Program-made: the position numbers and the translations under genes
The notes under the pieces: generated by a model
Database searches by the model: none
Told to the model about the DNA's origin: nothing
Seen by the model: only the letters and a program-made list of their open reading frames with translations
Assembly (NCBI GenBank): GCA_947630105.1
Contig: CANRGD010000008.1
Span: 1-33,110 of the forward strand
Origin: an uncultured Bacilli bacterium
GTDB lineage: Bacteria > Bacillota_I > Bacilli_A > RF39 > UBA660
Direction: 5' to 3'
DNA length: 33,110 nucleotides
Shown: one piece after another, positions 1-30,285 of the stretch
How positions within the stretch are numbered: position 1 is the stretch's first letter
How the letters are laid out: the number at the start of each line of letters is the position of its first letter

Positions 1-154
1 TCATCACACATTTTGCCACTGTTATCAGTTGAACCATCATCTATAACTAATATTTCTAAATTCTTATATGTTTGATTTACTATTGATGCAAGACATTCAT
101 CTAAATATTCTTCTACATTGTAAACTGGGACAATAACACTAATTTTATCTTTCA
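1..154. repeat. Direct repeat copy A (GT2 5' end)
   Basis: 152/154 identical to 937-1090. Confidence 0.95.
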
Positions 155-155
155 T
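1..155 (-). CDS. GT2 family glycosyltransferase, N-terminal part only (runs off the left edge)
   Basis: ATG at 155 with upstream GAGGTG; translation [52 protein letters not shown] is a typical GT2 (GT-A) start. Confidence 0.85.
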
Positions 156-167
156 GTTTTCACCTCA

Positions 168-1091: not shown

Positions 1092-1099
1092 TATAACAC

Positions 1100-2236: not shown

Positions 2237-2250
2237 ATTCTCACCTCTTT

Positions 2251-4461: not shown

Positions 4462-4488
4462 GTCCCTAAACTCCTTACAACTTTTTAT

Positions 4489-6603: not shown

Positions 6604-6645
6604 ATTTTTTCACCTCTAACTTTGGCAAAATTATTAAAATAGATA

Positions 6646-9499: not shown

Positions 9500-9516
9500 A
9501 TGATTTTCCCCTTTCT

Positions 9517-10635: not shown

Positions 10636-10691
10636 TTACTATCACCTTTAAAAAATCCATGTCTCTAATTTGTTCTTTAATATAAGAAGTT

Positions 10692-11867: not shown

Positions 11868-11883
11868 CCTACTTTATTATTAC

Positions 11884-13056
11884 TTATGATTTACTATAAG
11901 ATATAAATGATTTTTGCTTTTTTAATAATTCTAGTTTATTTTCTTCTTTTAATAATTGTTCATATTTATTTTCTAATTTTATTTCTTCTTGTTTTATATT
12001 AAAGCCATTATTTGATATTTCTTCTTTTCTATCTACTCGTTTAAAATTATTAAAAGCAGTTAATAGCTTATTAGCCCACGCCTCAGCTGAATTATTCAAA
12101 TCTATAAAATTTGTACTTTCTAAAACTTTAGTTTCCTTAGTCATAGCACTAGATAAAATACATAAAAGCCCAGCTGCTTGAGCTTCAACTCCAACTACAG
12201 GTAAGCCCTCATATAAAGATGGTAGTAAAAAAACATCCATTGCTTGATATAGAGCTGTAGGATTAGTTACTTGTCCTAAAAACTTAACATAATCTTCTAA
12301 CTGTAATTTCTTTACTTTTTCTTTTATCATTTCTTGATTTGGTCCTTGACCAGCTAATAACAACACTGAATTTGGTATTTTTTTATGAACTTCATTAAAT
12401 ATATCTATTAAAAATTCATGATTTTTTTGCTTTACAAATCTTCCAATATGACCTATTACTAAAGTATCATCTGCTATATTTAATTCTTTTCTTTTTTCTT
12501 TACGTAACTCTATATTAAATTCAAATTCATCTAAATCAATGGCATTATTTAATAAATAAACTTTTCCTTTATTATAAGTTCTATTACCAAATAACCATCT
12601 ACCAGCTAATTCACTACAACAAAAATAATCAGTAGCATAGACTTTAGAAAAATGTTTTAAAATTTGTTTTAACAAGTTTCTTTTCCATTCTTTTTTATTA
12701 GTAGTGGAATGACTATGGGCAATTCTAATTGGTACTTTAGCAGCTTTAGCGGCACATAAGGGAAATATTGATAAAGTATTAATATGAGAATGAACTATTT
12801 TATAATTTCCTGTTTTAAAAATATTTTTTAATTCCTTATAATATTTTAGTATTTTTTGATAAGGGGAAACTAAAATTACATTTCCACCTAGTTTTTTTAT
12901 TTCTTCATAGGGGATATTAGTTGAATCACTATCACAAATAAAATCAAATTGAATCTTACTTTTATCTATATTGCGATAATAATTCATAATAACAGCTTCC
13001 ACTCCTCCACCTATCCATTTGCCGATAACATGGGCTACTCTTATTTCTTTATTCAT
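11884..13056 (-). CDS. GT4 glycosyltransferase, EpsF-like; start more likely ATG 13056 than TTG 13074
   Basis: RVAHVIGKWIGGGVEAVIMNYYRNI; GHIGRFVKQKNHEFLIDIF; LPSLYEGLPVVGVEAQAAGL; AGAGGG SD upstream of ATG 13056. Confidence 0.9.
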   Translation of the reverse strand: MNKEIRVAHVIGKWIGGGVEAVIMNYYRNIDKSKIQFDFICDSDSTNIPYEEIKKLGGNVILVSPYQKILKYYKELKNIFKTGNYKIVHSHINTLSIFPLCAAKAAKVPIRIAHSHSTTNKKEWKRNLLKQILKHFSKVYATDYFCCSELAGRWLFGNRTYNKGKVYLLNNAIDLDEFEFNIELRKEKRKELNIADDTLVIGHIGRFVKQKNHEFLIDIFNEVHKKIPNSVLLLAGQGPNQEMIKEKVKKLQLEDYVKFLGQVTNPTALYQAMDVFLLPSLYEGLPVVGVEAQAAGLLCILSSAMTKETKVLESTNFIDLNNSAEAWANKLLTAFNNFKRVDRKEEISNNGFNIKQEEIKLENKYEQLLKEENKLELLKKQKSFISYSKS

Positions 13057-13078
13057 ACCTGTACCCTCTTTCAAAAAA

Positions 13079-13110
13079 AGATTATATTATTAGGCTTTAT
13101 AATATAATCT
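13079..13110 (-). terminator. Intrinsic terminator between the CpsB and GT4 genes
   Basis: Perfect 12-bp stem AGATTATATTAT / ATAATATAATCT, 8-nt loop, followed on the minus strand by a T7 tract that abuts the SD of the next gene. Confidence 0.7.
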
Positions 13111-13148
13111 CAAATTTACTTTAATTTAAAATTATTAACCCCTACTAC

Positions 13149-13922
13149 TTACTTCCATTTTCCAAAAATAGTTTTTTTAAATGGTTTTATATTTGTTTTT
13201 TCTAGTGGCTCATTATTTAGTACTTTCTTAGCATTATTTACTAAAACATCTTCTATTTCTTCTTTAGTTAAATACTTTTTTAATATTTTTTCTAAAGATA
13301 TTAATTTTTCATAATAATTGTCTTTAGCATGATGAATATCACTACTAATAAAAGTAATAGCCTTATGCTTTAACAGCAACATAACAAGTTTTTTAGTACT
13401 TTTCCCATATTCTCCAAAAAAACTACCTATATTACATTGAAAATATACTCCTTGTTCTATTAATTTTTCTATTAGTTTAGGATCTTTATGAAAATTACTA
13501 TATCTTTCTGGATGGGCTATAATACTATTAACATTATTACAAAGTAATTCAAATATAAAATTATTTAGACCTTTAAAATATCCTGTTAAAGGAAGTTCAT
13601 ATAATAAATAATTACTATTATTAAGAGTACTTATTAAATTAGCTTCTTTTAACTGTAAGACATTATTATCTATAAAAACTTCATTACCTATATAAATATT
13701 AGCTTTAATTTTTTCTTTTCTTAATATTTTTTTTATTTTCTTAATAAGTTCTATTTTACTTAAATTATTTGTATTATAATTAGTACCTAAAATATAATGT
13801 GGGGTCATTACAAAATCTGTTACCCCAAATTTAGTTCCTTCTTTTATAATTTTAATACTTTCTTCAATAGTTTTAGCTCCATCACAAATACCTGGTAAAA
13901 TATGCGTATGTATATCAATCAT
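13149..13922 (-). CDS. cpsB: PHP-family tyrosine-protein phosphatase, CpsB/YwqE-like
   Basis: MIDIHTHILPGICDGAKTIEESIKI...TPHY...IAHPERY...SSDIHH. Confidence 0.9.
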   Translation of the reverse strand: MIDIHTHILPGICDGAKTIEESIKIIKEGTKFGVTDFVMTPHYILGTNYNTNNLSKIELIKKIKKILRKEKIKANIYIGNEVFIDNNVLQLKEANLISTLNNSNYLLYELPLTGYFKGLNNFIFELLCNNVNSIIAHPERYSNFHKDPKLIEKLIEQGVYFQCNIGSFFGEYGKSTKKLVMLLLKHKAITFISSDIHHAKDNYYEKLISLEKILKKYLTKEEIEDVLVNNAKKVLNNEPLEKTNIKPFKKTIFGKWK

Positions 13923-13923
13923 T

Positions 13924-14592
13924 TTAATAATAGTAATTATAGTAATAATATTTATTATCTTTTTGAGGCATATTATTAACTATACAACCTGCTAGCTTAG
14001 TATCAAAATTACCAAGTATTTTTTTAGAATTAGCTAAAAGTTCCATTGGTGTCTTTTTATAAGAACATACTAGTATAACTTTATCTACTATATTAGTCAT
14101 AATTAAAGAATCAGATAATCCAATTATTGGAGTTCCATCCCATATGATTACATCATAATCTTTATCTAAAATTTCTACTAATTTTTTTGTTTTTTCAGAA
14201 GAAAGTAATTCACTTGGGTTAGGAGGTACTATTCCTCTAGATAAAACTGCTAAATTTTCAATACTTGTTGATTGAATATAACTTTTATATTTTTTTAAAT
14301 CTGTTATTAATAAATTTGATAATCCTACTTTATTTTGAATTTTAAAAATTTTATGTTGTCTTCCTTTACGCATATCACAATCAACTAATAAAACTTTTTT
14401 ACCAAGTTGAGCAAAAGATATAGCTAAATTAGCACTAATAAAACTTTTTCCATCTCCTGAACAAGGACTAGTAATTAATAAATTCTTACAAGGACCATTT
14501 ACTGATAAAAATTCTAAGTTTGTACGTACTCCATTAATAGCTTCACTTATTCTAGATTTAGGATTTTTTCCAACTATTAGTTCATTTTGCAT
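13924..14592 (-). CDS. cpsD: BY-kinase CpsD/CapB-like with C-terminal tyrosine cluster
   Basis: ITSPCSGDGKSFISANLAISFAQLGKKVLLVDCDMRKG (Walker A/A'); ends NKYYYYNYYY. Confidence 0.92.
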   Translation of the reverse strand: MQNELIVGKNPKSRISEAINGVRTNLEFLSVNGPCKNLLITSPCSGDGKSFISANLAISFAQLGKKVLLVDCDMRKGRQHKIFKIQNKVGLSNLLITDLKKYKSYIQSTSIENLAVLSRGIVPPNPSELLSSEKTKKLVEILDKDYDVIIWDGTPIIGLSDSLIMTNIVDKVILVCSYKKTPMELLANSKKILGNFDTKLAGCIVNNMPQKDNKYYYYNYYY

Positions 14593-15370
14593 GCTTTTTC
14601 ACCTTCTTTTTTTCATTATTCTTTTTATTACTTTTTTTATTATTTTTTTTATTAGTAAATAATTTCTTTTTTTCTTTAGGCTTATTTTCAGCTACTGGTA
14701 TAATAGCTAAAACAGGAAGATCAATTTTTGATTCAATTTGTTCAGCACTTTTTACGGTAGTATCAAAATAATATATTATAAATATGATAACTATTCCTAT
14801 AATTAAGCCAATTCCTACAAAAAGAAGATAATCTTTTTTAGGATTAATGTTGTAAGGTGCAGTTGGTATAGTTGCTTCATCTAAAATGGTAATATTATTA
14901 ATATCATAAATATTAACTATCTCTTTACTAAATACTTTTAATATTTCTTTAGTAATTTTTTGAGAAGTTTTTTTATTAGTATCAGCAACAGCTATTTTTA
15001 AAAGGGCTGTATCTACTTCATTAGATACACTAATTCTACTCATTAATTCTGCTGAGGTAGTTTTTAATTTTAAATTACTAATTACTTGATCTAAAACTCT
15101 TCTACTTTTAATAATACTACTATAAGTAGTTATTAATTGTTTATTAAAGGAAATATCTCTTTCACTAATAGCACTATTATCATTATTATCTGAATTATCA
15201 TTTGTTCTAGTTAAGGCTATAGTAGTTGATGATTGATACATAGGCACTTTAAAAAATTTATTATATACAACTCCACATCCTATACTAAGTATTAATAATA
15301 AAATAATAATAATTTTTTTATCCCAAAAATAATTTAATATCTCTTTTATATCTAGTTCTTCCATTTCCAA
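14582..15370 (-). CDS. cpsC: Wzz-domain chain-length regulator / kinase activator, CpsC-like
   Basis: Two TM segments flanking an extracytoplasmic domain (EILNYFWDKKIIIILLLILSI... and ...INPKKDYLLFVGIGLIIGIVIIFIIYYF); next to cpsD with 11-nt overlap; Lys-rich tail. Confidence 0.88.
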   Translation of the reverse strand: MEMEELDIKEILNYFWDKKIIIILLLILSIGCGVVYNKFFKVPMYQSSTTIALTRTNDNSDNNDNSAISERDISFNKQLITTYSSIIKSRRVLDQVISNLKLKTTSAELMSRISVSNEVDTALLKIAVADTNKKTSQKITKEILKVFSKEIVNIYDINNITILDEATIPTAPYNINPKKDYLLFVGIGLIIGIVIIFIIYYFDTTVKSAEQIESKIDLPVLAIIPVAENKPKEKKKLFTNKKNNKKSNKKNNEKKKVKKHAK

Positions 15371-15376
15371 ACCCTC

Positions 15377-16783
15377 CTATTTCATAACTTTCTTAATTTT
15401 TTCTTTAGCTATATTTACGGTAGTTAAATCTGGTTCCATTACATAATCTTCATAAGTTGTTAAATGTACTTTATTTCTACTATCAGTTCCATCAACACTT
15501 TGAAGTTCTATCTTCCAAGAATTACCATTAATAAGTATTTCTTTAATTCCATTATTAATTATTTTTCTAGGAATTGTTGTTTTATAAAAGTTAGAAATTT
15601 TTTCTGATATTTCTTTATAATTAGTAAGTGTATTAATATTTTTTAATTTTTCAAATATAGCTATAATTATTGTTTGACAGTTTTTTTGTCTTTGTCTATC
15701 TCCACCAATAGCTTTTCTTTCTCTGGCTACGGTTAATGTTTCAATACCATTTAATTTTTGACAACCTATATTTATTTTTACTTTTTTACCTTTACTATCA
15801 TCATAAGTATCTATAACACTGGAATGAGAAGTTATAAATGATGTAGTAGAACAATAATTTATACCACCTAAGGCATCTACAAGTTCTACTAAATTCGTTG
15901 TATTAATATCTATATAATAATCAATTTTAGTAGTAAATAAATTTTCTAAAGACTTCATAATTATATCTATTCCATAAGGACCCATATAACTTATAGTATC
16001 TTTTTTACCATTTTTAGATGCTACTTCAATATAATAGTCTCTAGGAATACTTGTTAAAAGTATTTTTTTTGTTTGTAAATTAACTGTTACTAACATATTA
16101 AAATCTCTTAAGCTATTAGTAAAATCTGCCCCACCAATATAAATATTAAAACTATTTTTTTCTTTATCTTCAACCTTTGAAACTGTTTTTATTTCAAATT
16201 TATAAATAATTTGAAAATCTTCTTTGGAAAAATTAGTAGCTAAACTAAAGATGATATTATAAGTATCTTTATCAAGTAACATAAATTTATTTTTATTTTC
16301 TTTAATACTAATAAATAACTCTTCTATATCATCGACTTCTTTACTTGTTACGGAATAATTTTTTTGTATTTTTTTTATAGCCTCTTTTATATTTATTGTA
16401 TCTTTGTAATAATAAATATTTCCTTTAATATCTTTTTTAGTAAATTTATTTTTACTATTAGCTACTACATAATAAGTAGTAATAGTTTCTGTTTTATTTT
16501 TAAAAGTTTTATCAAATAAATTATTAGTAAAATATAAATAATAACTTCCTAGAGCATTTATTAGTAGTGATAATAATATAAATATAAGTCCTATTACTTT
16601 AATGCCTTTTTGTTTTAAATTTATAAATAGTATTCCTACTACTGTAATAGTAATAGTAATAATTAAGCTTAAAATTAATATAAATGTTGGTAATATATTA
16701 ATTTTTAATAATAAATATATAAATAAAAACATTAATATTAAGGATAGAATACCAATAATATTTAAAGTTTTATTTTTATTCAT
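15377..16783 (-). CDS. LytR-CpsA-Psr (LCP) family protein; start probably ATG 16783 (ORF track extends to 16819)
   Basis: NMLVTVNLQTKKILLTSIPRDYYIE; LNGIETLTVARERKAIGGDRQRQ; N-terminal TM segments; GGGGGT SD before ATG 16783. Confidence 0.9.
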   Translation of the reverse strand: MNKNKTLNIIGILSLILMFLFIYLLLKINILPTFILILSLIITITITVVGILFINLKQKGIKVIGLIFILLSLLINALGSYYLYFTNNLFDKTFKNKTETITTYYVVANSKNKFTKKDIKGNIYYYKDTINIKEAIKKIQKNYSVTSKEVDDIEELFISIKENKNKFMLLDKDTYNIIFSLATNFSKEDFQIIYKFEIKTVSKVEDKEKNSFNIYIGGADFTNSLRDFNMLVTVNLQTKKILLTSIPRDYYIEVASKNGKKDTISYMGPYGIDIIMKSLENLFTTKIDYYIDINTTNLVELVDALGGINYCSTTSFITSHSSVIDTYDDSKGKKVKINIGCQKLNGIETLTVARERKAIGGDRQRQKNCQTIIIAIFEKLKNINTLTNYKEISEKISNFYKTTIPRKIINNGIKEILINGNSWKIELQSVDGTDSRNKVHLTTYEDYVMEPDLTTVNIAKEKIKKVMK

Positions 16784-16809
16784 ACCATAACCCCCAATTT
16801 CAAGCTCAT

Positions 16810-16838
16810 ATTCTATCATAAAAATGTAATTAAAGCAA
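16810..16838 (-). promoter_or_regulatory. Candidate promoter of the main EPS operon
   Basis: TTGCTT - 17 nt - TAGAAT on the minus strand, between the upstream terminator and the LCP gene. Confidence 0.55.
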
Positions 16839-16862
16839 GAAAAAAATAATAAAAATAAAAAC

Positions 16863-16884
16863 CAAGAGTAAAATCTAACTCTTG
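16863..16884 (-). terminator. Intrinsic terminator after the sugar transferase gene
   Basis: CAAGAGT...ACTCTTG stem, then GGTTTTTATTTTTATTATTTTTTT on the minus strand. Confidence 0.65.
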
Positions 16885-16892
16885 ATTTATAT

Positions 16893-17579
16893 TTATTTAG
16901 AACCTATACCTTTGATTACTACTATAAATGTTTTAAGAAAAATCTTTATATCTAATTTTAAATTAAAATTATTAGAGTAATAACTTTCAAGTTCTAAACG
17001 CTCTTTAAATGTTGTGTTGTTTCTACCATTTACTTGCCAATATCCAGTAAGTCCAGGGGTAGTTTTAACAATATCATTATAATATATTCCCATTTCTTCT
17101 TTTTCTCTTGGTAAATATGGTCTATTACCTATTAAGGACATATCTCCTTTTAAAATATTAAGTAATTGGGGTACTTCATCTATGGAAGCCTTTCTTAAAA
17201 TTTTACCAACTTTAGTTATTCTGGGATCATCAGTTAATTTTTTATTTAATTTATATTCTTTAGTTTTTTCTATATCTTCGGCTAATATTTTTTTTAGAAC
17301 TTCATCAGCATCAGGAACCATTGTTCTAAATTTATAAAATTTAAATATTTTACCATTTTTACCAATTCGATCTTGAAAAAAGAAAATAGAAGCATAATCT
17401 TTGTGAAAAATATATATTATTTTAATTGTAAGAGCTAAGGGTATTATAAATAAACAACCAATTAATGAAATAACTATATCAATAAATCTTTTTATAATAA
17501 GATAAATATCTTTTGTTAGTTCTTGCATTATATTTTTTTCAATTTCTACTTCTTCCATAAATATAAACCCCCAATACAC
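16893..17579 (-). CDS. Undecaprenyl-phosphate sugar phosphotransferase (EPS initiating transferase)
   Basis: KRFIDIVISLIGCLFIIPL; FKFYKFRTMVPDADE; RKASIDEVPQLLNILKGDMSLIGNRPYLPREKE; TPGLTGYWQVNGRN. Confidence 0.93.
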   Translation of the reverse strand: MYWGFIFMEEVEIEKNIMQELTKDIYLIIKRFIDIVISLIGCLFIIPLALTIKIIYIFHKDYASIFFFQDRIGKNGKIFKFYKFRTMVPDADEVLKKILAEDIEKTKEYKLNKKLTDDPRITKVGKILRKASIDEVPQLLNILKGDMSLIGNRPYLPREKEEMGIYYNDIVKTTPGLTGYWQVNGRNNTTFKERLELESYYSNNFNLKLDIKIFLKTFIVVIKGIGSK

Positions 17580-17644
17580 TGACCACTTTGCTTTTATATA
17601 ATATCACTAATTATAATTTTTGCAAGTAAAAATAAAAATAAAAA

Positions 17645-17677
17645 AGAATTAGTATAATTATTGTAGGTACTAATTCT
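17645..17677 (-). terminator. Intrinsic terminator after the 179-aa gene
   Basis: AGAATTAGTA / TACTAATTCT stem followed by a T-rich tract on the minus strand. Confidence 0.65.
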
Positions 17678-17711
17678 AATATATAAATTTAAAGTTTCCT
17701 TATTAAAAAGT

Positions 17712-18251
17712 TTAACTTATTTTATTTAGTCTGATATTATTTAAAACATCAAAAATAAATGAACAATCTTCACCAATTACTAAATCTGTTGTATCATATG
17801 CTGGATCCATGTCACTAGGTCCAGTTGTATCTTTATGACTAATCAAACTAATTGTATTACCATTTATTACGAAAGTTCCTTCTCTTAAAAGAGTTTGATA
17901 CTGGTAAGTATAGGTACTATCTGTATTTAAAGTATATGTATAATTTCTTCCATAACTATCTTGGGCAGAATAAGTTCCAACACATTTTGGAGCAGGAAGT
18001 GAAGGACATGAGGTTATATTTTGATTTTGATTACTTTCATTATTATCCGTAGAAGTATTAGTATTTTCAGTTGGTTCTGTTTGATTTGTAACTTCATTAT
18101 TTTTACTTTCAGTATCTTTATAGTTAATTTCTATTTTTTCATAACCTAGATAAGCTATAAGACCAATTACTAGTAATAAAGTAATTATAAATGGAACAAA
18201 AAAATTATTTTTTCTTTCTTTAGGATATAAATTTTTATTTTCTTCTATCAT
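17712..18251 (-). CDS. Membrane-anchored extracytoplasmic protein of unknown function
   Basis: N-terminal TM (FFVPFIITLLLVIGLIAYLGY), Asn/Thr/Glu-rich linker, small beta-rich domain with Cys. Confidence 0.65.
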   Translation of the reverse strand: MIEENKNLYPKERKNNFFVPFIITLLLVIGLIAYLGYEKIEINYKDTESKNNEVTNQTEPTENTNTSTDNNESNQNQNITSCPSLPAPKCVGTYSAQDSYGRNYTYTLNTDSTYTYQYQTLLREGTFVINGNTISLISHKDTTGPSDMDPAYDTTDLVIGEDCSFIFDVLNNIRLNKIS

Positions 18252-18352
18252 TATATGACTCCTTTCTATTATATATAGAGTATATCAGTTAATTAATATC
18301 TTATAAAGGGTTTTATATTATTTTTTTTTAATTTACAGTAAAATATAATATA

Positions 18353-18550
18353 TTAATTATGAGAATAGTCCTTTTTTATTTTTGTAAGTCGAGATAAAAG
18401 AGATTGTTCCATTATTTTAAAGGTTTTTAAATCTATAACTTTTTCATCATATAATTCTTTATTAACTATTAATCTAAATTCTAGCCATTTATATTCAAAG
18501 GGTAAATGTTTGGTACTAAATAAAACTTCTATATCATTAGTTTCTGTCAT
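18353..18550 (-). CDS. Small 65-aa helical protein, SHOCT-like motif
   Basis: GGAGG SD upstream of ATG; LIVNKELYDEKVIDLKTFKIMEQSLLSRL. Confidence 0.55.
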   Translation of the reverse strand: MTETNDIEVLFSTKHLPFEYKWLEFRLIVNKELYDEKVIDLKTFKIMEQSLLSRLTKIKKDYSHN

Positions 18551-18642
18551 TAAAAAAGACCTCCATCTTCTTTAAATTTTATGAAAACTAATAAAAAAAA
18601 GAATAATAAGTCAAAATTAGACATTATTATTATTTTATAGGC

Positions 18643-19188
18643 TTAGTTAGACTTTATTTTAGTTTTATTTATTATAAATATTATTAAGCAAATAAGTAGT
18701 ACTATAGGAATTATTCCAAATATTAGATAAGTTTTAGTATCTTTATATATACCTTCATTATTTTTAAGGCATTTGTTAATATCAGCTTTATTATTTATAC
18801 AAGTAACTATATCACAATAATCATTTTTGTCATAAAGACTAACTGCTTTAGTTAGTTTATTCATGATTATATTATTAAAACCAGTAAAATATGTAGTACC
18901 AATTATAGTTATAGGTAATTTATCATTATTTATTTTTAAATTTTTCTTTATTTTTTTTACTAATTCTTTATTTTCATTAATATTTATATATTCTATATTA
19001 ACACTATTATCATCTTCATATTTTTTTTCTAATAGCTTTCTTTCTTTAGCACATTTTTGACAAGTATCAGTATATAATATATATATTTTATTTTTTGCAA
19101 ACATAGATGAAGTAGTTGCAACAGCATGAGATACTACTGGTATAAATAAAATCATTAGCAAAGCAAGTATAATTAGTAGTTTTTTCAT
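18643..19188 (-). CDS. Exported, membrane-anchored thioredoxin/glutaredoxin-like protein
   Basis: Signal peptide, YILYTDTCQKCAKERKLLEKKY (CxxC) and C-terminal TM segment. Confidence 0.65.
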   Translation of the reverse strand: MKKLLIILALLMILFIPVVSHAVATTSSMFAKNKIYILYTDTCQKCAKERKLLEKKYEDDNSVNIEYININENKELVKKIKKNLKINNDKLPITIIGTTYFTGFNNIIMNKLTKAVSLYDKNDYCDIVTCINNKADINKCLKNNEGIYKDTKTYLIFGIIPIVLLICLIIFIINKTKIKSN

Positions 19189-19210
19189 TTTTACTCCTCA
19201 TATATTAATA

Positions 19211-19237
19211 AAGGTGTGATATAAAATATCACGCCTT
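19211..19237 (-). terminator. Probable terminator hairpin downstream of the 1610-aa gene
   Basis: AAGGTGTGATAT-AAA-ATATCACGCCTT, 12-bp stem with one wobble pair; T-tract imperfect. Confidence 0.5.
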
Positions 19238-19253
19238 ATATAAATATTATTAT

Positions 19254-22200
19254 TTAAGTTTTATCATTATAAGTAAGTTGAACAGCTTTTTCAGCCGTTA
19301 AAGTTGATCCAGAATAAGATATTTCAAATTTTTTAGCTGTTGATTTATAAGTATTAATAATTAATCCTGATGCATCTTCAGCTAAAGTATTATCAATAAC
19401 AATTTTAGTTTTATCTACACTGCTTTCTTTATCAGCTAAAAATATTGAACTAACTTGTAAGGTTGCTTTTTCTGAAGGGGCATGAGCTTTAATATTGATA
19501 AATGTAGCATTTTTAGCTGGTGTTAAATATAAATCATTTTGATTTACTCTCAAAGTTGTACCTGCCTTAATTTTATTAATAGTTATAAATGTTTTAGCAT
19601 TAGTTTTATCATAGAATAAATTTCCTATAACGGAAGAGCCAGCTACTTGAGATTCAGTATCACTCATACCATCTACTGTTTTATTAAATTCAATGTAAGT
19701 AGCAACATTGGCATTAAACTTATTATAAAATAGTGTAGTTGTAGGTTCTTCTATTTCATAATATATGATACTGGCAAAACTACTATCTTCGTCTTCAATA
19801 GAATATTCTGACTCATCGGATCTAAATTTTTTCTGCTTAACAGTAATTACATGGTGTGGTGATTTATCACCTATTTTTTTACCAATAATTTTTATTTCAT
19901 CAAATAATACACCTTCAGCTGCAATAACTATTTCACCTTCAATAGAACCCTTTATTTCTTTAGATCCAGATTCAGAACCAATTAAAGTTACAGGACGAGA
20001 AATAGTTAAAATATTTTCAAGAGTAATTTTATTTTTTACAACTATATATTTTTTATTACTATTAGTTAGAGCATTATTTAATTGAGTTTCATCACTTACT
20101 ACATCAACTGTACTATCATCATATGATGCTGTATATTTAGCTATATAAGAAGTACTTGTAGTAGGAATTTTAATTTGGCCCGTTGGATATTCATGACCAT
20201 CAGTAGAGCTCCAACTTGAAACATTAAATGTAGCAAGATTATCTTTATATTGAGTTATAGTACCAGCATTTTTAGGTTCAGGCAAATACTCTTCATTAGA
20301 ATCTTTATCATAGTACATTCTATAAGAACAAGGGGCCTGCGTTATAGTTCTATCTGCAGAAAAGGTAACTTCAATCCATCTATTTTTAATATCAGGATTT
20401 AAGAAATAATGTTTAACATCATTATATGTAGGATCAGCTTCTAAAGTATCTGAAAAATATGTATCTCCACTAAAATTACCTGCATATTTAGTAACTTTTT
20501 GAATTGTTACTTTTTCAGCTTTTGAAGTCTCATCTCTAGTTACATTGACAGTAGAATTATTTCCAGCTTTAACTAAAGGTTTCATATATTTCTCACTAGC
20601 ATATTTTAAATTAGTTCCTGTAAATGAACCATTACCTTTAACTAAAACACCCTCTTCTGTAACATTATTAAAATCAACTTTATCAACTATTACAGATGCA
20701 CCAGCTTCTACCGTTAGAGCAGATTTTGAACCAGTCAAATTTAAGTTATTAATATTAATATTATTACCTTTAATATCAAATATAGTCTCAATACTATTAC
20801 CTGTTAAAGTATTAATTTCTTTAGTTGAAGATGATTTAATAGTAATATTACTTCTTGTAATATCATGTTGCTGTTTAACAGCAAAACTAGTACCTATATC
20901 AATATTTTTTATACTATCATTAGTTAAAGCCTTTTTTAATTGTTCTTCATTCATAACAATAGCACTTTCTGTTTTAAAATTAAAAGTATAAACTAGTGAA
21001 GCTAAATCATTGGATAATTTTACAGACTTAGCTAAATTTTCAAAACTTAAAGTAAATTGTTTATTATCTATAGCCATATTATTTAAGGTTTCATCCTCAG
21101 TAGCTAAAGCTGTGGTAAACACTTTTGTTAATTTTGATTTAATTTTTTCTTTTAATTGTTCTGTCTCTGCAAGACTTTCTTTAGTAAATTTTTCACTATT
21201 TCCATCTATATCAAAAGTTATACTACCAATTTCTTCTTTATTAAGAATATAGGCAATTGTTCCGGCTAAAACATCTTTCAATTTGCTTATTTTTATATCA
21301 TAATCTTTAACTTCAATGATAATATTATTACTAGCAACTTTAAATTCTAATTTATCATCATAATTAGGTGAAAGCGAACTACCATCATTTTTATTTAAAT
21401 CAGCAATTACATCTTTTACAAATTCAGATTCATTAATTGTATAATGAGCTTTTAAAGTAATTTCAGAATTTAAAGGAGTTTTTTCTAAAGCAAATTTTTC
21501 CCCAGTGGCTTTATCAATCCAATATTCATCAAAAGTGTGATAAGCAAAATTAGCAATATCAGTTACTTTATTAGTATTAATTAACTCACCCTTATATTGT
21601 TGATCAATTACTTTTTTTAAAGTACCAGTATTATTAAAATATTCGAAAGTAACATTATAATAAGGTATAAAAACAAAATCAGAAGAATAATCAATAACTA
21701 CTTCATATGGTAAATAATTATTTTTATTACCATCAAAATCTATTTTATAACTAATTTTATTAGTATCTTCTTTCAATTTAATTAATACTGTTATGAATCC
21801 ATTAGTATAATCAGTTTTACTAGGTGTTACAGCGTTCATCCAAAGGCCTTTTTCATTCTTAAATTGAACAGTCCAGTTATTAATATTTTCTTTTCCTACT
21901 TTATCTGCGGTTGGTCCGAATACTTTTAAAGCAACATAATATCCCGTGTCATCTTCAAAGCCGGCTTTACTAACTTTCTGTTGCTTTACAGAGCCTGTTA
22001 ACTTATAGTTAGCATTTGCAGAAGTTGCTGTTAAAAGAGGTGTTCCTGCTTTTTCAAAACTATAGCCCCATTCTTCTAATTGTTGTTTATCTTCTTTAGA
22101 AATATAGCCTGAATCAGTTGTAGTTTCGCTTCCTGTAGCAAGAAAGACATTTGTACTACTAGAAACTTCTTGGAAGTTTAATCCACTCCAATCAACTGTC

Positions 22201-24086
22201 AAAGTATAGGGAGCATATTCTTTTTTCTCACCATCTATATCAATAACAATATCAAATGTTTTGTTACTATCGTTAGGATGTAAATGTTTTAATACATATA
22301 TATCATTAGAAGTATCAAAATCACTACCAGTTGCAGTTTTATCTTCAGTACTATTATCTTTAGAATGAACAATTTTAACAGTTGTACTATTTTGTTTAGC
22401 TATATTAGTATGGATAGTAAATGCTAAATAATATCCAGTCTTAGCTTCACCACTGAATGGTGTTTTATTATCTTCAAATTTGTCAATAATAGGAATTAAG
22501 CCATTTACTTTTACTAAATTAGGATTAGTATCAGCTACAGTAAAGTTGGTTTTATAACCATCTTTAAGTACCCACCCATAATCATCTTTTAATTTTGTTT
22601 TAATACTTTCCTCACTAGATATATCTTTTACAGTAATAAGGGAGTTTTTCACAAAAGTTACTTCACTATAATCAACTGTATATTCAACTGGTAAATATTT
22701 ATTACTATTACCATCATTATCAATTGTAAGTGTAAATTTGCACTTTTCTTTATTACCAGCTTGTGCACATTTATCATCTAACTTCTTCATTAAACCAATA
22801 GAACTATCTGTATCAAAGGCTGAAGCAGTGATTATTGTTTTATCATCAGTAATAGTTACTCCACTTTTTTTAGCTGCAAATTCTTTTTCACCATCCATAG
22901 CAGTTAAAACTAAGGAGAAGAAATATCCTTCAACATCAGCTTTATCAAGGCCATTATATTTAGTTTTTTCTTGGAAAATACTACCCTTTAATTTATATGT
23001 TTTATCATTTTCTTTAGTTAATGTTAACTTATCAAAGCCATCAACTTCTCTGTTACCAACAAAACTAAATGATTCATTAATTAAATCAGCAAAAGTTTTA
23101 TGATCTTTAGCTTCCTTATTTAAAGATTCTAAATCTATTTTCATACCTGAATCTTCTTGAAATTTTAACCTACTATAATCAATAGTATATGTTTTAGCGG
23201 CATACTCTTTACCACTACCATCAAAATCAATAGTAATAGTTATTTTTTTATCACTATCTTTTGTATCAGGATCAACAGAATATAATAAAGCTATGCCAGC
23301 TTCATCAGCTGTTGTTACATCAAAATTATCATAGGTAAATTCTTTTTCTGTTTTGGCACCTTTTACTTTTATTGTTGTTTTTGTCTTAGCTGTTGCTCCA
23401 GGTACTTTTAAAGCAAGGGCAAAATAATATCCTGTTTTTTCTTCTGTATTAAATACATTGTCATTTAGTGTGGTAGTTTTTAATAATAATCCTTCTAAAT
23501 ATTTAACTTCATCAGTTGAATCAGTAGAAATTTCTAGATCTTGTTTGCCAAGTTTAGTAAAATATTTTTTTATAACTTCTTTATATGTAGTATCAGTATT
23601 AGCAATTAATTCTACTTTAGAAGGTGTTTCTTTAGCAATATAATTATAATCTATATAACGTATATCAATTTTATTTTTATTATTATCTAATTTTAATTCA
23701 GTATTTCCAACTACTATATTTTTTGAAGGGACTTCCCAACCTATTGGAGCCCAATTAGCATCATATTTTCTTTTTATCATATTAATTGTCATTTTACCAT
23801 AAATTTCATCGGCTGTTACTTTTGTTGCTGCATCAGGACCTTTTTCTCCATCATTAACAGTTGTATTTATACTTTTTGCTGCTAACATTATATCTTGTGT
23901 TGTTAATTTATGAGCTGAAGTAAATACATAGTTACCAATAATATAAGCAGACTCTGCATCTTTATTATATTTTTCTATTTCATTACCTAATTCATTTAAA
24001 GTCATTTCTTTAGCAAATACTGGTGTTATTGATGATAACAGTATTATAAATAAAAAGGCTAATAATTTTTTGAGATTTTTTATCAT
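19254..24086 (-). CDS. Large secreted/surface repeat protein (1610 aa)
   Basis: Signal peptide MIKNLKKLLAFLFIILLSSITPVFA; repeated DxDG-x(4)-Y...YTxDYSxLxF modules; InlB-B-like segment; beta-helix-like Asn/Ile-rich segment. Confidence 0.8.
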   Translation of the reverse strand: MIKNLKKLLAFLFIILLSSITPVFAKEMTLNELGNEIEKYNKDAESAYIIGNYVFTSAHKLTTQDIMLAAKSINTTVNDGEKGPDAATKVTADEIYGKMTINMIKRKYDANWAPIGWEVPSKNIVVGNTELKLDNNKNKIDIRYIDYNYIAKETPSKVELIANTDTTYKEVIKKYFTKLGKQDLEISTDSTDEVKYLEGLLLKTTTLNDNVFNTEEKTGYYFALALKVPGATAKTKTTIKVKGAKTEKEFTYDNFDVTTADEAGIALLYSVDPDTKDSDKKITITIDFDGSGKEYAAKTYTIDYSRLKFQEDSGMKIDLESLNKEAKDHKTFADLINESFSFVGNREVDGFDKLTLTKENDKTYKLKGSIFQEKTKYNGLDKADVEGYFFSLVLTAMDGEKEFAAKKSGVTITDDKTIITASAFDTDSSIGLMKKLDDKCAQAGNKEKCKFTLTIDNDGNSNKYLPVEYTVDYSEVTFVKNSLITVKDISSEESIKTKLKDDYGWVLKDGYKTNFTVADTNPNLVKVNGLIPIIDKFEDNKTPFSGEAKTGYYLAFTIHTNIAKQNSTTVKIVHSKDNSTEDKTATGSDFDTSNDIYVLKHLHPNDSNKTFDIVIDIDGEKKEYAPYTLTVDWSGLNFQEVSSSTNVFLATGSETTTDSGYISKEDKQQLEEWGYSFEKAGTPLLTATSANANYKLTGSVKQQKVSKAGFEDDTGYYVALKVFGPTADKVGKENINNWTVQFKNEKGLWMNAVTPSKTDYTNGFITVLIKLKEDTNKISYKIDFDGNKNNYLPYEVVIDYSSDFVFIPYYNVTFEYFNNTGTLKKVIDQQYKGELINTNKVTDIANFAYHTFDEYWIDKATGEKFALEKTPLNSEITLKAHYTINESEFVKDVIADLNKNDGSSLSPNYDDKLEFKVASNNIIIEVKDYDIKISKLKDVLAGTIAYILNKEEIGSITFDIDGNSEKFTKESLAETEQLKEKIKSKLTKVFTTALATEDETLNNMAIDNKQFTLSFENLAKSVKLSNDLASLVYTFNFKTESAIVMNEEQLKKALTNDSIKNIDIGTSFAVKQQHDITRSNITIKSSSTKEINTLTGNSIETIFDIKGNNININNLNLTGSKSALTVEAGASVIVDKVDFNNVTEEGVLVKGNGSFTGTNLKYASEKYMKPLVKAGNNSTVNVTRDETSKAEKVTIQKVTKYAGNFSGDTYFSDTLEADPTYNDVKHYFLNPDIKNRWIEVTFSADRTITQAPCSYRMYYDKDSNEEYLPEPKNAGTITQYKDNLATFNVSSWSSTDGHEYPTGQIKIPTTSTSYIAKYTASYDDSTVDVVSDETQLNNALTNSNKKYIVVKNKITLENILTISRPVTLIGSESGSKEIKGSIEGEIVIAAEGVLFDEIKIIGKKIGDKSPHHVITVKQKKFRSDESEYSIEDEDSSFASIIYYEIEEPTTTLFYNKFNANVATYIEFNKTVDGMSDTESQVAGSSVIGNLFYDKTNAKTFITINKIKAGTTLRVNQNDLYLTPAKNATFINIKAHAPSEKATLQVSSIFLADKESSVDKTKIVIDNTLAEDASGLIINTYKSTAKKFEISYSGSTLTAEKAVQLTYNDKT

Positions 24087-24108
24087 TTTTCTATTTCCCT
24101 TCTAATAA

Positions 24109-25494
24109 TTAATTATAATATATTGGAACATTATTTATTGTAGTTCCATCTTGTAAGTGAAGACTAGCTGTTTTTATATTTGAATCTATTGTTACTTCAG
24201 TAGTATAGATATATTGTTTAAATGGTTTGGTTACACCATTATAAGTTATAGCAACATAATCTTTAAAGGCACTGCCATTTCTTGTTACAGATATCGAATA
24301 TTGAAATATTCCTGTTAATTCTTTCAATGCCGTTAAAGTTATAGCATAACTTGCTGGTTTTTCACTAACTGTTATTGTTATACTAGCTGTTTTGCCTCCA
24401 TCATTCGTTTTAACTGTTATTATTGCTTGGCCTACTCCATTAGCTCTTATATTTCCACTACCATCTACTGATACAATCTCAGAATTATTACTACTCCATG
24501 TTACATCTTTATTACTAGCATTACTAGGATTTATATTAGCTGTTAATTTTTTTGTATCTCCTATATACATGGTATTGCTACCACTAATACTTACATTAAT
24601 TACATGTACAATTGATGGAGAAGCAGGAGGTGATGAAGTATTAGGTTTACTATTACTACTATTATTATTTGTTTGAGGTTTATTTGTATTATTACTTTTA
24701 GCTTTTATAGTTATTTTATATGTAGCTGTTTTACCATTTTCTGTGGTTACTGTAATTGTTACAGTACCTTCTTTTAAGCCTTTTACAGTACCGTTTTCAT
24801 CAACAGTAGCTATAGAATTGTTACTACTTTTCCAAGTAACTTTTTTATTAGCAGTAGCTGGTTCTATATTGACAGTTAATTTAATAGTACTTCCTACGTT
24901 AACAGTAGTTGCACCAACTATACTAATACTAGTTACTGCTGTTTCTTCCGTTACTGTCACTATACAACTAGTTTTATATTTTCCATCTTTAGTCTTAACA
25001 GTAATTGTTGCAGTACCACTTTTTAAAGCTTGAAGCTTACCATCTTTATCTACTGTAACAATATTTTCATCACTTGAGTCCCATATTAAATCTTTTACAT
25101 CATATCCAGCTAATATTTTTGTTACTTTTAACATTTTTATATCATCAGGGGCTAAAGTTAAACTAGAATAATTTAATTTTAGCTCAGTAGTTGATTTAGA
25201 CCATTTAGCTTTTAAAGTCATATTTTTAGTAACTTTAGTATTAAAATCATATATTTTTTTATTATAATACCAACCTACAAAAGTATAACCTTCTCTTTTT
25301 GGATTAGTTGGTTTTTCTATTAAAGAATTTTCTTTTACTACAATAGAACTAACTTTACTCCCTCCATTACTATCAAAAGTAATTTTATACTCTTTACTGG
25401 TACAAGACTTTAATAATATTAAAATAATAGCTGCAATAATTAATATAACTAAAATTATTTTAAAAATTAGTGACTTTTTATTTTTTACTTCCAT
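24109..25494 (-). CDS. Membrane-anchored surface protein with an InlB-B (Flg_new) repeat and Big_2 Ig-like domains
   Basis: N-terminal TM; YKITFDSNGGSKVSSIVVKENSLIEKPTNPKREGYTFVGWY; repeated V(T/S)W(K/S)S(S/N)...TVKGLKEGTVTITVTT. Confidence 0.85.
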   Translation of the reverse strand: MEVKNKKSLIFKIILVILIIAAIILILLKSCTSKEYKITFDSNGGSKVSSIVVKENSLIEKPTNPKREGYTFVGWYYNKKIYDFNTKVTKNMTLKAKWSKSTTELKLNYSSLTLAPDDIKMLKVTKILAGYDVKDLIWDSSDENIVTVDKDGKLQALKSGTATITVKTKDGKYKTSCIVTVTEETAVTSISIVGATTVNVGSTIKLTVNIEPATANKKVTWKSSNNSIATVDENGTVKGLKEGTVTITVTTENGKTATYKITIKAKSNNTNKPQTNNNSSNSKPNTSSPPASPSIVHVINVSISGSNTMYIGDTKKLTANINPSNASNKDVTWSSNNSEIVSVDGSGNIRANGVGQAIITVKTNDGGKTASITITVSEKPASYAITLTALKELTGIFQYSISVTRNGSAFKDYVAITYNGVTKPFKQYIYTTEVTIDSNIKTASLHLQDGTTINNVPIYYN

Positions 25495-25790
25495 TTTTTA
25501 CTCCTTTAAACATATCTAAATATACTCTTAACTTCCTATTATATAATTTAGTGTATCATATAAATATTTTATTTTCTACAATTTTCGACAAAAACATTTT
25601 ATAAATATTAGTAATAAGAATTTTTTGATTTTGCTTGAAATTTTTTTAACTTAATATAAAAAAACTAGAGTAAGCTTACTTTAATTACAATTATTCTAAT
25701 ATATTATACTGCTTTATTTTGTATGCACAATGTACTGCTAATTAAATATTTTGTTAATTGCTTTATCTTATTTCCATATTATAAACTAAA

Positions 25791-26021
25791 TTAAACTAAG
25801 CAACCATCAATTTTAGTATATTTAAAATTATATGTTCCTGTATTGACTCCCTGATTGCAAGAGTTTTGTAAAACTTCTAAAAAAGTTTGATCTCCATGTC
25901 CCCCAGCTTTCCAACAGCGCATAGTAGCTCCATCAACAGTTACTTTACCTGAATCATAAAAATGATCTTTTTCTAAATCAACTACTTTTTCTTCTACTGC
26001 TGTAGCCATAGTTACAACTTT
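25791..26021 (-). pseudogene. Class B PBP transpeptidase fragment between the SXXK and SXN motifs
   Basis: FKVVTMATAVEEKVVDLEKDHFYDSGKVTVDGATMRCWKAGGHGDQTFLEVLQNSCN, then unrelated GVNTGTYNFKYTKIDGCLV and stop; continues in frame from the 29374-30297 fragment. Confidence 0.8.
26011..26021. repeat. Candidate attachment-site core copy 1 (GTTACAACTTT)
   Basis: Identical 11 bp at 29396-29406; located at the split PBP reading frame. Confidence 0.75.
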
Positions 26022-26091
26022 GAACGTGACGACTATTTTAAGACCAAAATAAAAAAATTATAAATAATATAACTTTTTTATAACTTTTATC

Positions 26092-27366
26092 TTAATCTTT
26101 TAATGCTGTTATAGGTAGTACAATAACACCGTCATCTCTTGTATAAATAGCATTAGATAAACCACATATAACAACTAGTGTTTTTGGTGGAATGCCACCT
26201 TTTTCTTTTATAGCATTACTAATTCTAGTTAAGTTAGTTGCAGCTTCTTCAATTTGATTGGCACCCAGTTTTATTTCAAAGGCAGCATAAGAACCATCTT
26301 CAAATTCAATTACGGCATCAAATTCATTACCATCGTAATCTTGATAATGAAATAAATTCCAATTATTTGCCTCAGCATATATTCTTAAATCTCTTTCAAC
26401 CATTGCCTCAAAAAAGAAACCAAATGTAAGTAAATCATTAATACATTTATCAACTGTCATATTAAGTAGGGAAGTCGCAATAGAGGGATCTACAAAATGT
26501 CTTTTTTCCATTTGTTTAACTCTCATACTACTTCGAATATTTGAATTAAATGGTAGTTGATTTTCAATTAAATATAATTTGCTTAAATCATTTAAATATT
26601 TATTAATAGTTTTAACATCTATATCTAAATTATTAACTCCTTTTATATCTTCTTTTAGTTTAGCAATAGATGAAGTAGTAGATTCATTGCGAGAAAGACT
26701 TCTAAGTAAAAGCATCATTTTATTTAAGTCTCTTTTAGTATTACTAATTCTATCTATATCCATATCAAGTATCTCTTTAATATACTCTTTAGGTAATTTA
26801 ATTGCTTCATCAAATGGAACATCAATACTGCCTGGAAATCCTCCTCTTAATACTAATTTTATAATATCTTTTAAATTAACATCACGAGTTTTTTTACTTT
26901 TAACCTTATTATTATAGATATCTTTTATAGAAACATCTCCTGTAGAATCACCTGATTCATATAAACTCATAGGATACATTTTTAATTTTTTAATTCTGCC
27001 AGCACCAGAATGCTTAATTTTAGCTTGTTTTTCTTTAGGTAAGACAGTAGAACCTGTTAATATAAATTTTCCTTTTACGCCATCTTCATCACATTTATAT
27101 CTAGTAGCATCCCAAATTTCTGGAACTTCTTGCCACTCATCAATAAGTCTAGGATTTGCTCCTTCAAATATTAAAGATATATCAGTTTCTGCTAATGTTC
27201 TATTTTGGTAATTACCACTAGGATCCATAAGTAAAAATTCGCTTTTAGCCTGTTTTCTTCCAGCCCAAGTTTTCCCAATCCATTTAGCACCTACAATATT
27301 TACTGCTCCATATGCTTTTAAACTAGCTTCTATTTCTTTATCAATTAATCTAGGTCTATATTGCAT
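26092..27366 (-). CDS. AAA ATPase with DUF4143-type C-terminus
   Basis: Walker A GAKWIGKT, Walker B-like RLIDEWQ, FILTGS; C-term GNEFDAVIEFEDGSYAAFEIKLG. Confidence 0.82.
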   Translation of the reverse strand: MQYRPRLIDKEIEASLKAYGAVNIVGAKWIGKTWAGRKQAKSEFLLMDPSGNYQNRTLAETDISLIFEGANPRLIDEWQEVPEIWDATRYKCDEDGVKGKFILTGSTVLPKEKQAKIKHSGAGRIKKLKMYPMSLYESGDSTGDVSIKDIYNNKVKSKKTRDVNLKDIIKLVLRGGFPGSIDVPFDEAIKLPKEYIKEILDMDIDRISNTKRDLNKMMLLLRSLSRNESTTSSIAKLKEDIKGVNNLDIDVKTINKYLNDLSKLYLIENQLPFNSNIRSSMRVKQMEKRHFVDPSIATSLLNMTVDKCINDLLTFGFFFEAMVERDLRIYAEANNWNLFHYQDYDGNEFDAVIEFEDGSYAAFEIKLGANQIEEAATNLTRISNAIKEKGGIPPKTLVVICGLSNAIYTRDDGVIVLPITALKD

Positions 27367-27461
27367 TTTACCAACTCCTTATATACATATATATTATAAT
27401 ATATTATAATTATTTTGTCTATTTATTGGATTAAATTTGCATAATTTATTGGATGATATTT

Positions 27462-29198
27462 TTAAATTTCAGTGGATGATTTTTTTAAATAAACATTATA
27501 AGTAAATTTGTTAGAGGGAGATTTTTTTCTTTTACATTCAAGGGTATTTATTATTTGCTTTTCTAAGTATAAAGGAGCTTCTTTTAATAACTCATTTAGA
27601 TAGTTAGATCCTTTAGGGTGAGGAGTTAGTATTCCACTTAAATTTAAATATATATCAAGGTTTATATTATACCTATTATTATCTATTTTAGATACAATTA
27701 TTTCATCTACAAAATTCCTTACAAAATCTTCTATAAAATCACTATTTAACTCTTCTATAATAGATGATTCTAGTTTATCTTTATTAGTACTTTGTTTTAA
27801 AAGTTCTATTTGTTTATATAGCTCTTCTTTTCTTTTATTAAATATTAATAGCTTATTTTCTAAATTTTTAAATTGATACTTTAAAGATTCTTTTTTTAGT
27901 TCTTTATTGATAAGCATATCTATAAGAAAATTTTTTTTATCTTCAATATTTTTAATACTTTTATCTATTTCTTTTAATTCTTTAGTATATTGATTATTTT
28001 TATCAATATTATTATAAAGTGTTAGCATACTCTCTATTATTACTTTACTATTTGGTAAAATGTTATTCATAATTTGTTTTATGATATTATAAAGATCTAT
28101 TTCAGCAATAATTGGGGAGGTGCAAGCATTAAGTCCTTGTTGTAAATACATTCCACAACTCCAAGTAGGTCTATTTTTTCTTTTACTTCCATGACTTCTT
28201 TGAAAATGAACATTATGTTCCTTACAATAAATTTTGGAACTAAAAGGATATTTTAAACTGCCAAAATATGTACTTTTATTACTTTTATTTTTAGTTCTAA
28301 TAGACAATATTTCATTTGCTTTCTCCCATAATTCTTCAGTTACAATTGCTGGAACAATATCAGGTGCTTTATATATAATTTGCTTTTCTTCAGCTATTTT
28401 AATTCTTTTTTTAGTTCTATAATCTATTGTTTCAGTAGTTCTTCCTCTATAATATCCTTTATATTTAGGGTTTTTAATAATTCTTTTTAAAGTATCTTTA
28501 TCATACATATTTCCATTTTTATTAGAAAAACCTAAGTCTTTTAATTTCTTTGATAATTTATAAAAACCATATTTACCACTTGCATATAATAAAAATACCT
28601 TTTTAATAAATTTTGCTTCAGCAACATCTATTATTAATTTACAATTTTCTTTTTTATATCCCGTAATATTAGAAGAACCTAAAACATGTCCATTTTTTAT
28701 TGCTTCTCTATGACCAAATTTTACTCTAGAAGATAACTTTTTAGATTCATCTTGAGCTAAATTAAACATAATATTTAGAATTAATTCTGAATTAGAATCA
28801 AATGTATTTAAGTTTTGATTTTCAAAATATATTCCAACATTATTTTCTTTTAAAATTCTAATATAATGAATACTATCTTCTAAATCTCTTGCAAAACGAG
28901 AAACTTCTTTAGTAATAATTAAATCAAATTTTGCTTTTTTAGCATCTTCAATCATTCTTTTAAAACCAACTCTTTTTTCGACTCTTACCCCTGATATACC
29001 TTCATCAATATATCCATCAACATATATCCACTTAGGTTTTTCATTTATATAATTTTTATAATAACTTAGTTGATTTTCTAAAGAATTTAATTGAACATCG
29101 CTATCAGTAGAAACTCTTGCATAAAATACTACTTTAAGTGGTAAATTAAAGATTTTTTCTCCATTCATTAATAATTTAGATATATCATTAAAGTTCAT
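27462..29198 (-). CDS. Large serine recombinase, intact (578 aa)
   Basis: YARVSTDSDVQLNSLENQL; TKEVSRFARD; recombinase domain; KNPKYKGYYRGR; Cys/His zinc-ribbon-like segment; C-terminal coiled coil. Confidence 0.92.
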   Translation of the reverse strand: MNFNDISKLLMNGEKIFNLPLKVVFYARVSTDSDVQLNSLENQLSYYKNYINEKPKWIYVDGYIDEGISGVRVEKRVGFKRMIEDAKKAKFDLIITKEVSRFARDLEDSIHYIRILKENNVGIYFENQNLNTFDSNSELILNIMFNLAQDESKKLSSRVKFGHREAIKNGHVLGSSNITGYKKENCKLIIDVAEAKFIKKVFLLYASGKYGFYKLSKKLKDLGFSNKNGNMYDKDTLKRIIKNPKYKGYYRGRTTETIDYRTKKRIKIAEEKQIIYKAPDIVPAIVTEELWEKANEILSIRTKNKSNKSTYFGSLKYPFSSKIYCKEHNVHFQRSHGSKRKNRPTWSCGMYLQQGLNACTSPIIAEIDLYNIIKQIMNNILPNSKVIIESMLTLYNNIDKNNQYTKELKEIDKSIKNIEDKKNFLIDMLINKELKKESLKYQFKNLENKLLIFNKRKEELYKQIELLKQSTNKDKLESSIIEELNSDFIEDFVRNFVDEIIVSKIDNNRYNINLDIYLNLSGILTPHPKGSNYLNELLKEAPLYLEKQIINTLECKRKKSPSNKFTYNVYLKKSSTEI

Positions 29199-29213
29199 AA
29201 ATTCTCTCTTTCT

Positions 29214-29339
29214 TTATTTTAAATTTTTTATTAGGAGTTCATTTGCTTTTTGAAAAGTTATCTCATCAATAATATTTTTTTCATATAGTTTTCTATTTAT
29301 AATTATTTTAATAGTTTGTATAAAATTTTTATTATTCAC
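29214..29339 (-). CDS. 41-aa SHOCT-like microprotein upstream of the recombinase (GTG start, not in the ORF track)
   Basis: MNNKNFIQTIKIIINRKLYEKNIIDEITFQKANELLIKNLK; GGTG 7 nt before the start. Confidence 0.5.
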   Translation of the reverse strand: MNNKNFIQTIKIIINRKLYEKNIIDEITFQKANELLIKNLK

Positions 29340-29373
29340 AATTAATCACCAATATATATTATGATAGTGTATT

Positions 29374-30285
29374 TTAAATATAACTAAAAATTGGTGTTAC
29401 AACTTTAAAAGTACTACCCGGTTCATAGGATGCCCATATAGGTAAATTTCTACTTAATACTTCTTGAGTATAATTTTTATAATTATTAGGATCATAATCT
29501 GGTCGAGAACCCATTCCTAAAATTTCTCCAGTATTAGGGTCCATAACAACCGCCAAAGCCATATCTGGAGAAAACATATCAATAATATTATCAAGTTCTC
29601 TTTCAATTGACTTTTGAATATTTATATCTATAGTCAAAGTTAAGTTCATACCTGCTTGTGGTTCTACATAAACATCAGTTAAATTTAATTTATTTCCTTT
29701 AGAATCAGAAAAATATTTTATTGCTCCACTTTTACCAGTTAAATATTTATCATATTGTAATTCTAAGCCGGATAAACCTTGATTATCAATTCCTACATAC
29801 CCTAAACTATGAGAAAGTAAATTACCATAAGGATAATATCTTTTAGCTTCTTTGACTAAATATACTCCTTCAAAATCCAAAGAAGAAATTTTCTCTGCTA
29901 TCTCATAAGGTAGTCTCCTACCCTCAGGATGAACTCTTTCAATAGATGTTTTTTTATAAACATGTTTTTTCATTTCATCATAAGAAACATTTAAAATTTC
30001 TGATAATTTTAAGGTTACTTCTTTTTTATTTTTAATTTGATTAGGAATTAAAACTAAACTTGTTGTAGTTAAATTATCTGCTAAAACAACTCCATTTCGA
30101 TCATAAATTTTACCTCTATCAGCTTCTATAGGTAAATCTCTACTCCATAAATCTTTAGCATAGTTATTTAATTTTTTATAATCAAATACTTGAATATAAA
30201 AAACTCTAAAAATTATTGTTAATAAGAGAATTAAAATAATAAGAAAAGTAACTTTTATACGTTCATCTATTTTTTTTAAAAACAT
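29374..30285 (-). pseudogene. Class B PBP (SpoVD/FtsI-like), N-terminal fragment truncated after the SXXK motif; start probably ATG 30285
   Basis: N-terminal TM, ADRGKIYDRNGVVLADN, LTIDINIQKSIERELD, MDPNTGEILGMGSRPDYDPN, SYEPGSTFKVVT, then PIFSYI and stop. Confidence 0.88.
29396..29406. repeat. Candidate attachment-site core copy 2 (GTTACAACTTT)
   Basis: Identical to 26011-26021. Confidence 0.75.

Follow-up and report, generated by a model that had tools for sequence, protein, structure and literature searches.

Serine-recombinase elements interrupt the sporulation gene spoVD at three conserved sites in a family of uncultured gut Bacilli

The window analysed here, a stretch of 33,110 nucleotides on contig C8 of a draft genome (G000) of an uncultured Bacilli bacterium, carries a 3.4-kb serine-recombinase element (element 1, 26021-29406) inside the SxxK motif of a penicillin-binding protein (PBP) gene, identified below as spoVD. 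In G000, spoVD lies in four pieces, cut within the codons of SxxK (window), SxN (window, ~25855) and FGQG-TPIQ (contig C17), the first two being active-site motifs. Element 1 is a mobile, site-specific large-serine-recombinase element, one of three that cut spoVD into four, and these three probably act as skin-type gene-intervening elements; the findings suggest that spore formation depends on cutting these elements out again. For the wider proposition, that three recombinases, each dedicated to the codons of SxxK, SxN or a third conserved motif, put spoVD together from four pieces in the DNA itself, recurrently in a family of gut Bacilli and with an extension to dacB and spoIVA, we see about even chances.

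The split gene and its junctions

The N-terminal part of the gene reads ...SYEPGSTFKVVT, and the C-terminal part picks up with FKVVTMATAVEEK (Table 1). When the outer ends of element 1 are joined, the PBP reading frame is restored at that junction. Aligned with the intact homologue, both junctions keep exact register, and relatives without the element (G003 and G007) show a single uninterrupted frame across the SxxK site. A sequence-only reading of the window had proposed that a serine-recombinase element cuts a PBP gene in SxxK and that precise excision could rebuild this junction; the coordinates, the register of the ends and the uninterrupted relatives agree with it on both points. It had also described 11 bp shared by the two junctions and a frame restored by removal of the interval. 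The sequence GTTACAACTTT does occur at both junctions (offset 3385), but the core common to all elements at the SxxK site is shorter, only AA. Likewise, removal rebuilds that junction, but removing element 1 alone does not restore the gene, because a second element cuts the C-terminal fragment ~50 codons further on, directly after SCN of the SxN motif.

The same reading had set out beforehand what would speak against it, namely a gene split at the same codons in relatives lacking the element. Relatives without the element have an intact gene, and those split at the same codons carry related elements. The SxxK site is occupied by related recombinase elements in G006, G030, G028, G127, G074, G098, G086, L129 and L135, so the insertion is not a chance event.

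Element 1 consists of the recombinase, a 41-aa ORF and an AAA_14-DUF4143 ATPase. The recombinase possesses Resolvase (PF00239, 6.8e-31) and Recombinase (PF07508, 1.1e-17) domains, together with a zinc ribbon scoring 24.6 bits, just under the cut-off of 25.3, in line with the large serine recombinase in conserved catalytic codons that had been proposed. No phage structural genes occur in the gene content of element 1, which does not fit a prophage. A Pfam search with the 41-aa ORF gave no significant match.

Table 1. Features of the window associated with the interrupted spoVD gene
Feature	Positions	Strand	Remarks
Element 2 (SxN site), left part	1..25856	.	Runs off the contig; right end at G000:C17 ~9488, recombinase at C17:9448-11178
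Capsule genes (CpsB/CapC, AAA_31 ATPase, LytR_cpsA_psr, Bac_transf)	13149..17579	-	Probable element 2 cargo
1610-aa surface protein, element 2 cargo	19254..24086	-	Apparent homologue in the L197 SxN element (by inspection)
Big_2 / Flg_new surface protein, element 2 cargo	24109..25494	-	Similar protein at the same place in the L197 SxN element
spoVD piece 2, ~residues 297-351, ends after SCN of SxN	25848..26027	-	78% identical to intact G007 spoVD
Element 1 gene-right junction core (attR side)	26011..26021	-	
Cargo AAA_14 / DUF4143 ATPase	26092..27366	-	PF13173, PF13635
Large serine recombinase of element 1, 578 aa, SxxK-site lineage	27462..29198	-	PF00239, PF07508, tree
Small ORF, 41 aa, directly upstream of the recombinase	29214..29339	-	Candidate recombination directionality factor
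Element 1 gene-left junction core (attL side)	29396..29406	-	Always-shared AA = Lys codon at 29406-29405
spoVD piece 1, residues 1-297, ends in SxxK motif	29395..30285	-	85% identical to intact G007 spoVD

The remainder of the gene is found on C17, where residues 348-415 (9488-9285) abut the second recombinase and residues 412-634 (4532-3864) abut a third (4492-6153); contigs C8 and C17 would be joined across element 2. In G006, spoVD is cut at the identical three sites. The cut originally noticed is real, but two further elements cut the same gene, as part of a family-wide set of site-dedicated lineages.

For ~20 elements both ends are available, and at each junction the register matches that of the intact gene exactly. 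Precise excision at every cut site would rebuild spoVD. By our reading of the end alignments, the bases always common to both ends are AA of the Lys codon in SxxK, AA of the Asn codon in SxN, and CA of the Gln codon in TPIQ following FGQG, and the crossover would lie within these 2 bases. A short core shared by the ends and in register with an intact target is the arrangement of large serine recombinase elements. The element-side arms form inverted repeats (an attP dyad) in 17 of 21 elements at p<0.05, those of element 1 being weak (p=0.036). At the SxN site of G153 (L223) and of L184 the arms are unpaired, and each end looks like a different SxN sub-lineage, suggestive of a combination of two elements.

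Gene identity and the sporulation programme

Intact orthologues score 719 bits (G007) and 749.8 bits (G035) against the model for stage V sporulation protein D (TIGR02214, cut-off 688); the other class B PBP of the family (716 aa) reaches 197 bits with its N-terminal 359 residues. By inspection, MraY- and FtsW/SpoVE-like genes come after the last spoVD piece in G000. Among 145 genomes of the family, spoVD is present or absent together with spoIVA (114/7/8/16, p=1.5e-10) and is likewise lost together with a sporulation sigma factor (p=2e-13), both tests ignoring relatedness and incomplete genomes. G000 itself encodes Spo0A (276 bits, cut-off 200), a sporulation-type sigma factor (279.8 bits, under the SigK cut-off of 298.65) and spoIVA. 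On the strength of the TIGR02214 scores, the co-occurrence and these three genes, the interrupted gene is identified from sequence as spoVD, in a host that encodes a sporulation programme; the insertion therefore lies where skin-type elements lie, inside a sporulation gene of such a host. A vegetative cell-division PBP was considered and rejected, since the spoVD model accepts the intact orthologues and loss of the gene goes with that of spoIVA and the sigma factor. The target is indeed a PBP, as first described, but its identity is the sporulation PBP SpoVD. No second intact copy of spoVD was found in the source genome, an 87% complete draft in 60 contigs.

A CATA-type -10-like motif, possibly a SigE-type promoter, stands a few tens of bases before the spoVD start at ~60 of 76 loci of L118-L197, a figure from a seeded search without a background comparison on spoVD itself. 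Names on the related contigs include Bacilli, Tenericutes, Ca. Onthousia and Ca. Scybalousia, and the family probably belongs to the order RF39. A published survey describes spoVD and spmB as reduced or absent in that order (PMC10868615).

Recombinase lineages, cargo and further targets

In a tree of 39 recombinases, each target site corresponds to one clade, with support of 100/99 or better: nine recombinases for SxxK, 12 for SxN and eight for FGQG of spoVD, four for SxxK of dacB and five for a site near SxN of a second D,D-carboxypeptidase. Sequence divergence indicates that the elements spread horizontally between species. Between G153 and L184, pS is 0.155 for the recombinase and 0.66 for the spoVD N-terminal pieces, and in its FGQG recombinase G000 stands closer to G029, a member of another genus, than to G006. 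For G000 and G006, a long vertical descent of the insertions is unsupported, the SxN and FGQG recombinases being less diverged than spoVD at synonymous sites.

Directly upstream of nearly every recombinase there is a short ORF of similar pattern (e.g., NKELYxxxxI); the pattern matched in 24 of 38 cases, and most of the remainder are alike by eye. By analogy with the small directionality factors of skinCd and SPbeta (PMC5025042), this ORF is a candidate directionality factor.

The cargo varies across elements. The surface proteins of the window are attributed to element 2 because, by inspection, L197 has similar proteins in the corresponding position of its SxN element, and the capsule genes probably lie inside element 2 as well, depending on the join between C8 and C17. 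Element 3 of G000 carries an AbiEi/AbiEii-type toxin-antitoxin pair (L077 7762-9204, G000:C17), and element 1 of G006 an NlpC/P60 protein.

Other genes of the family are interrupted as well. The dacB gene is cut at SxxK in G032, G035, G090 and G163, and is followed in G035 and G163 by apparent spmA/spmB genes (by inspection; PF07670 for the first gene). A different type of serine recombinase, again codirectional with its target, spoIVA, and abutting the 3' piece, cuts that gene near residue 122 in G006:C15 (L221 914-6005) and G028:C12 (L228 3759-6789). An apparent split near residue 122 is also seen in G009, G076, G082, G119, G123 and G141, and in G111 the cut is near the C-terminus. The second D,D-carboxypeptidase is cut in G016, G029, G034, G123, G129 and G135. 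On IMG/VR contigs classed as viral (L249 3443-7748, L250 and L256), dacB or the second D,D-carboxypeptidase lies in pieces beside these recombinases, dacB of L249 being seemingly cut at two sites. Related recombinases are also present at further loci (L225, L226, L216, L217, L239, L242 and L243, in G017, G014, G088, G094, G109, G110 and G164), several of them with a C-terminal FKRGYDT-like stretch.

Excision, alternative explanations and known systems

The skin-type reading is favoured because the anatomy matches that of elements excised in sporulation by a serine recombinase. On this reading, the interrupted gene would be required in the sporulating mother cell alone. In that cell, the recombinase and a directionality factor, for which the adjoining small ORF is the candidate, would excise each element by crossover in the 2-bp core and rebuild spoVD, and the forespore would retain the interrupted copy and hand it on to its descendants. 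Excision in sporulation is thus proposed by analogy, as are its timing and control.

In about 30 of the 145 sampled genomes, spoVD is split at one, two or all three of its sites; the count is approximate, since some genomes were called from a fragment that stops at the site close to the end of a contig. An assembly or binning artefact is highly improbable, even if G000 is a fragmented draft and the placement of element 2 relies in part on contig ends: many assemblies made independently in different studies have these junctions at identical codons, and in G026, G027, G065, G080, G074, G127, L119, L184 and L197 a single contig carries both ends. A more serious competitor, which we nevertheless regard as rather unlikely, is that ordinary site-specific mobile elements permanently knock out spoVD, the catalytic codons being merely conserved landing sites in a gene dispensable for growth and the carriers being non-sporulating or heading there. 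Horizontal spread to the same sites would agree with such a loss, as would the negative results on excision and promoters: one exact circle-junction search of IMG/VR for element 1 gave no match, no excised form was observed in the assemblies, and SigE/SigK-like promoters are not enriched upstream of the recombinases across elements (p=0.18 and 0.29). A promising SigE/SigK-like candidate in the window (CATAATATA) was dropped for lack of that enrichment. Against permanent loss, spoIVA and the sporulation sigma factor are kept in 30 of 30 split genomes (0/30 lack either), and the pieces show no decay: pN is far below pS and there are no stops inside the gene parts, the two stops counted being, by their coordinates, in tails past a junction. 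Both observations are still compatible with a knockout, since the insertions could be recent; for the same reason, purifying selection on the pieces may predate insertion, and low pN/pS does not prove function after it.

The elements might also form a reversible switch independent of development, in which random excision and reinsertion leave part of the population able to sporulate (bet-hedging or active lysogeny). Insertion by a serine recombinase at an exact site can in principle be reversed, and excised and integrated subpopulations occur in cultures carrying the yin element (PMC10747680), but chance excision of all three elements from one gene would be rare and the assemblies gave no evidence of a mixed population, so that we find this explanation improbable. 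Contig ends near junctions were considered as a sign of such mixture and discarded, as those inspected fall inside the element and not at the core. Excision during sporulation remains our preferred reading, and what counts against it, beside the negative results on excision and promoters, is that the elements, being mobile, may have entered each host recently, that the second D,D-carboxypeptidase may not be a sporulation gene, and that related recombinases occur at further targets.

Should excision happen on cue, a large group of uncultured gut bacteria needs several exact DNA deletions, akin to splicing at the DNA level, in order to form spores, and whole-gene annotation models will score spoVD as absent. 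The question can be tested directly, attB and attP of the site-dedicated recombinases being known.

Among known systems, the skin-type gene-intervening element of sigK, spsM, spoVFB, gerE and yabG comes closest; a serine recombinase, assisted in several of them by a directionality factor, removes such elements during sporulation (PMC5025042, PMC4191935, PMC5595907, PMC10747680). The skin elements of sigK employ spoIVCA in B. subtilis and CD1231 with the directionality factor CD1234 in C. difficile (PMC5025042). As with skin, a serine-recombinase element lies in a mother-cell sporulation gene, which in skin is rebuilt by exact excision, and the small factor encoded by the C. difficile element has a candidate counterpart here in the small ORF. 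Unlike skin, the target is spoVD, one gene holds up to three elements, the window element is small, and excision is a proposal. The gin element in gerE of B. cereus ATCC10987 is a single 28.6-kb element with three recombinases and a 9-bp core (PMC5595907); it shares with ours a non-phage character, a short common core and a serine recombinase with a small factor, whereas here separate elements, each with its own recombinase, occupy several positions within a single gene. SPbeta in spsM, vfbin in spoVFB and yin in yabG (PMC4191935, PMC10747680) similarly interrupt sporulation genes by a recombinase element, with a small directionality factor in SPbeta and a predicted one in yin. They are prophages or prophage-like, unlike element 1 with its lack of phage genes. 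In heterocystous cyanobacteria, the nif and hup elements are several independent elements in genes used only in a terminally differentiated cell, with different hosts, recombinases and cell type. In the open-access literature we found no paper on interruption of spoVD, dacB or spoIVA and no report of three elements in one gene. What is new in relation to these systems is the target, the presence in one gene of three lineages each dedicated to its own site, the insertion in catalytic-motif codons and the recurrence across a family.
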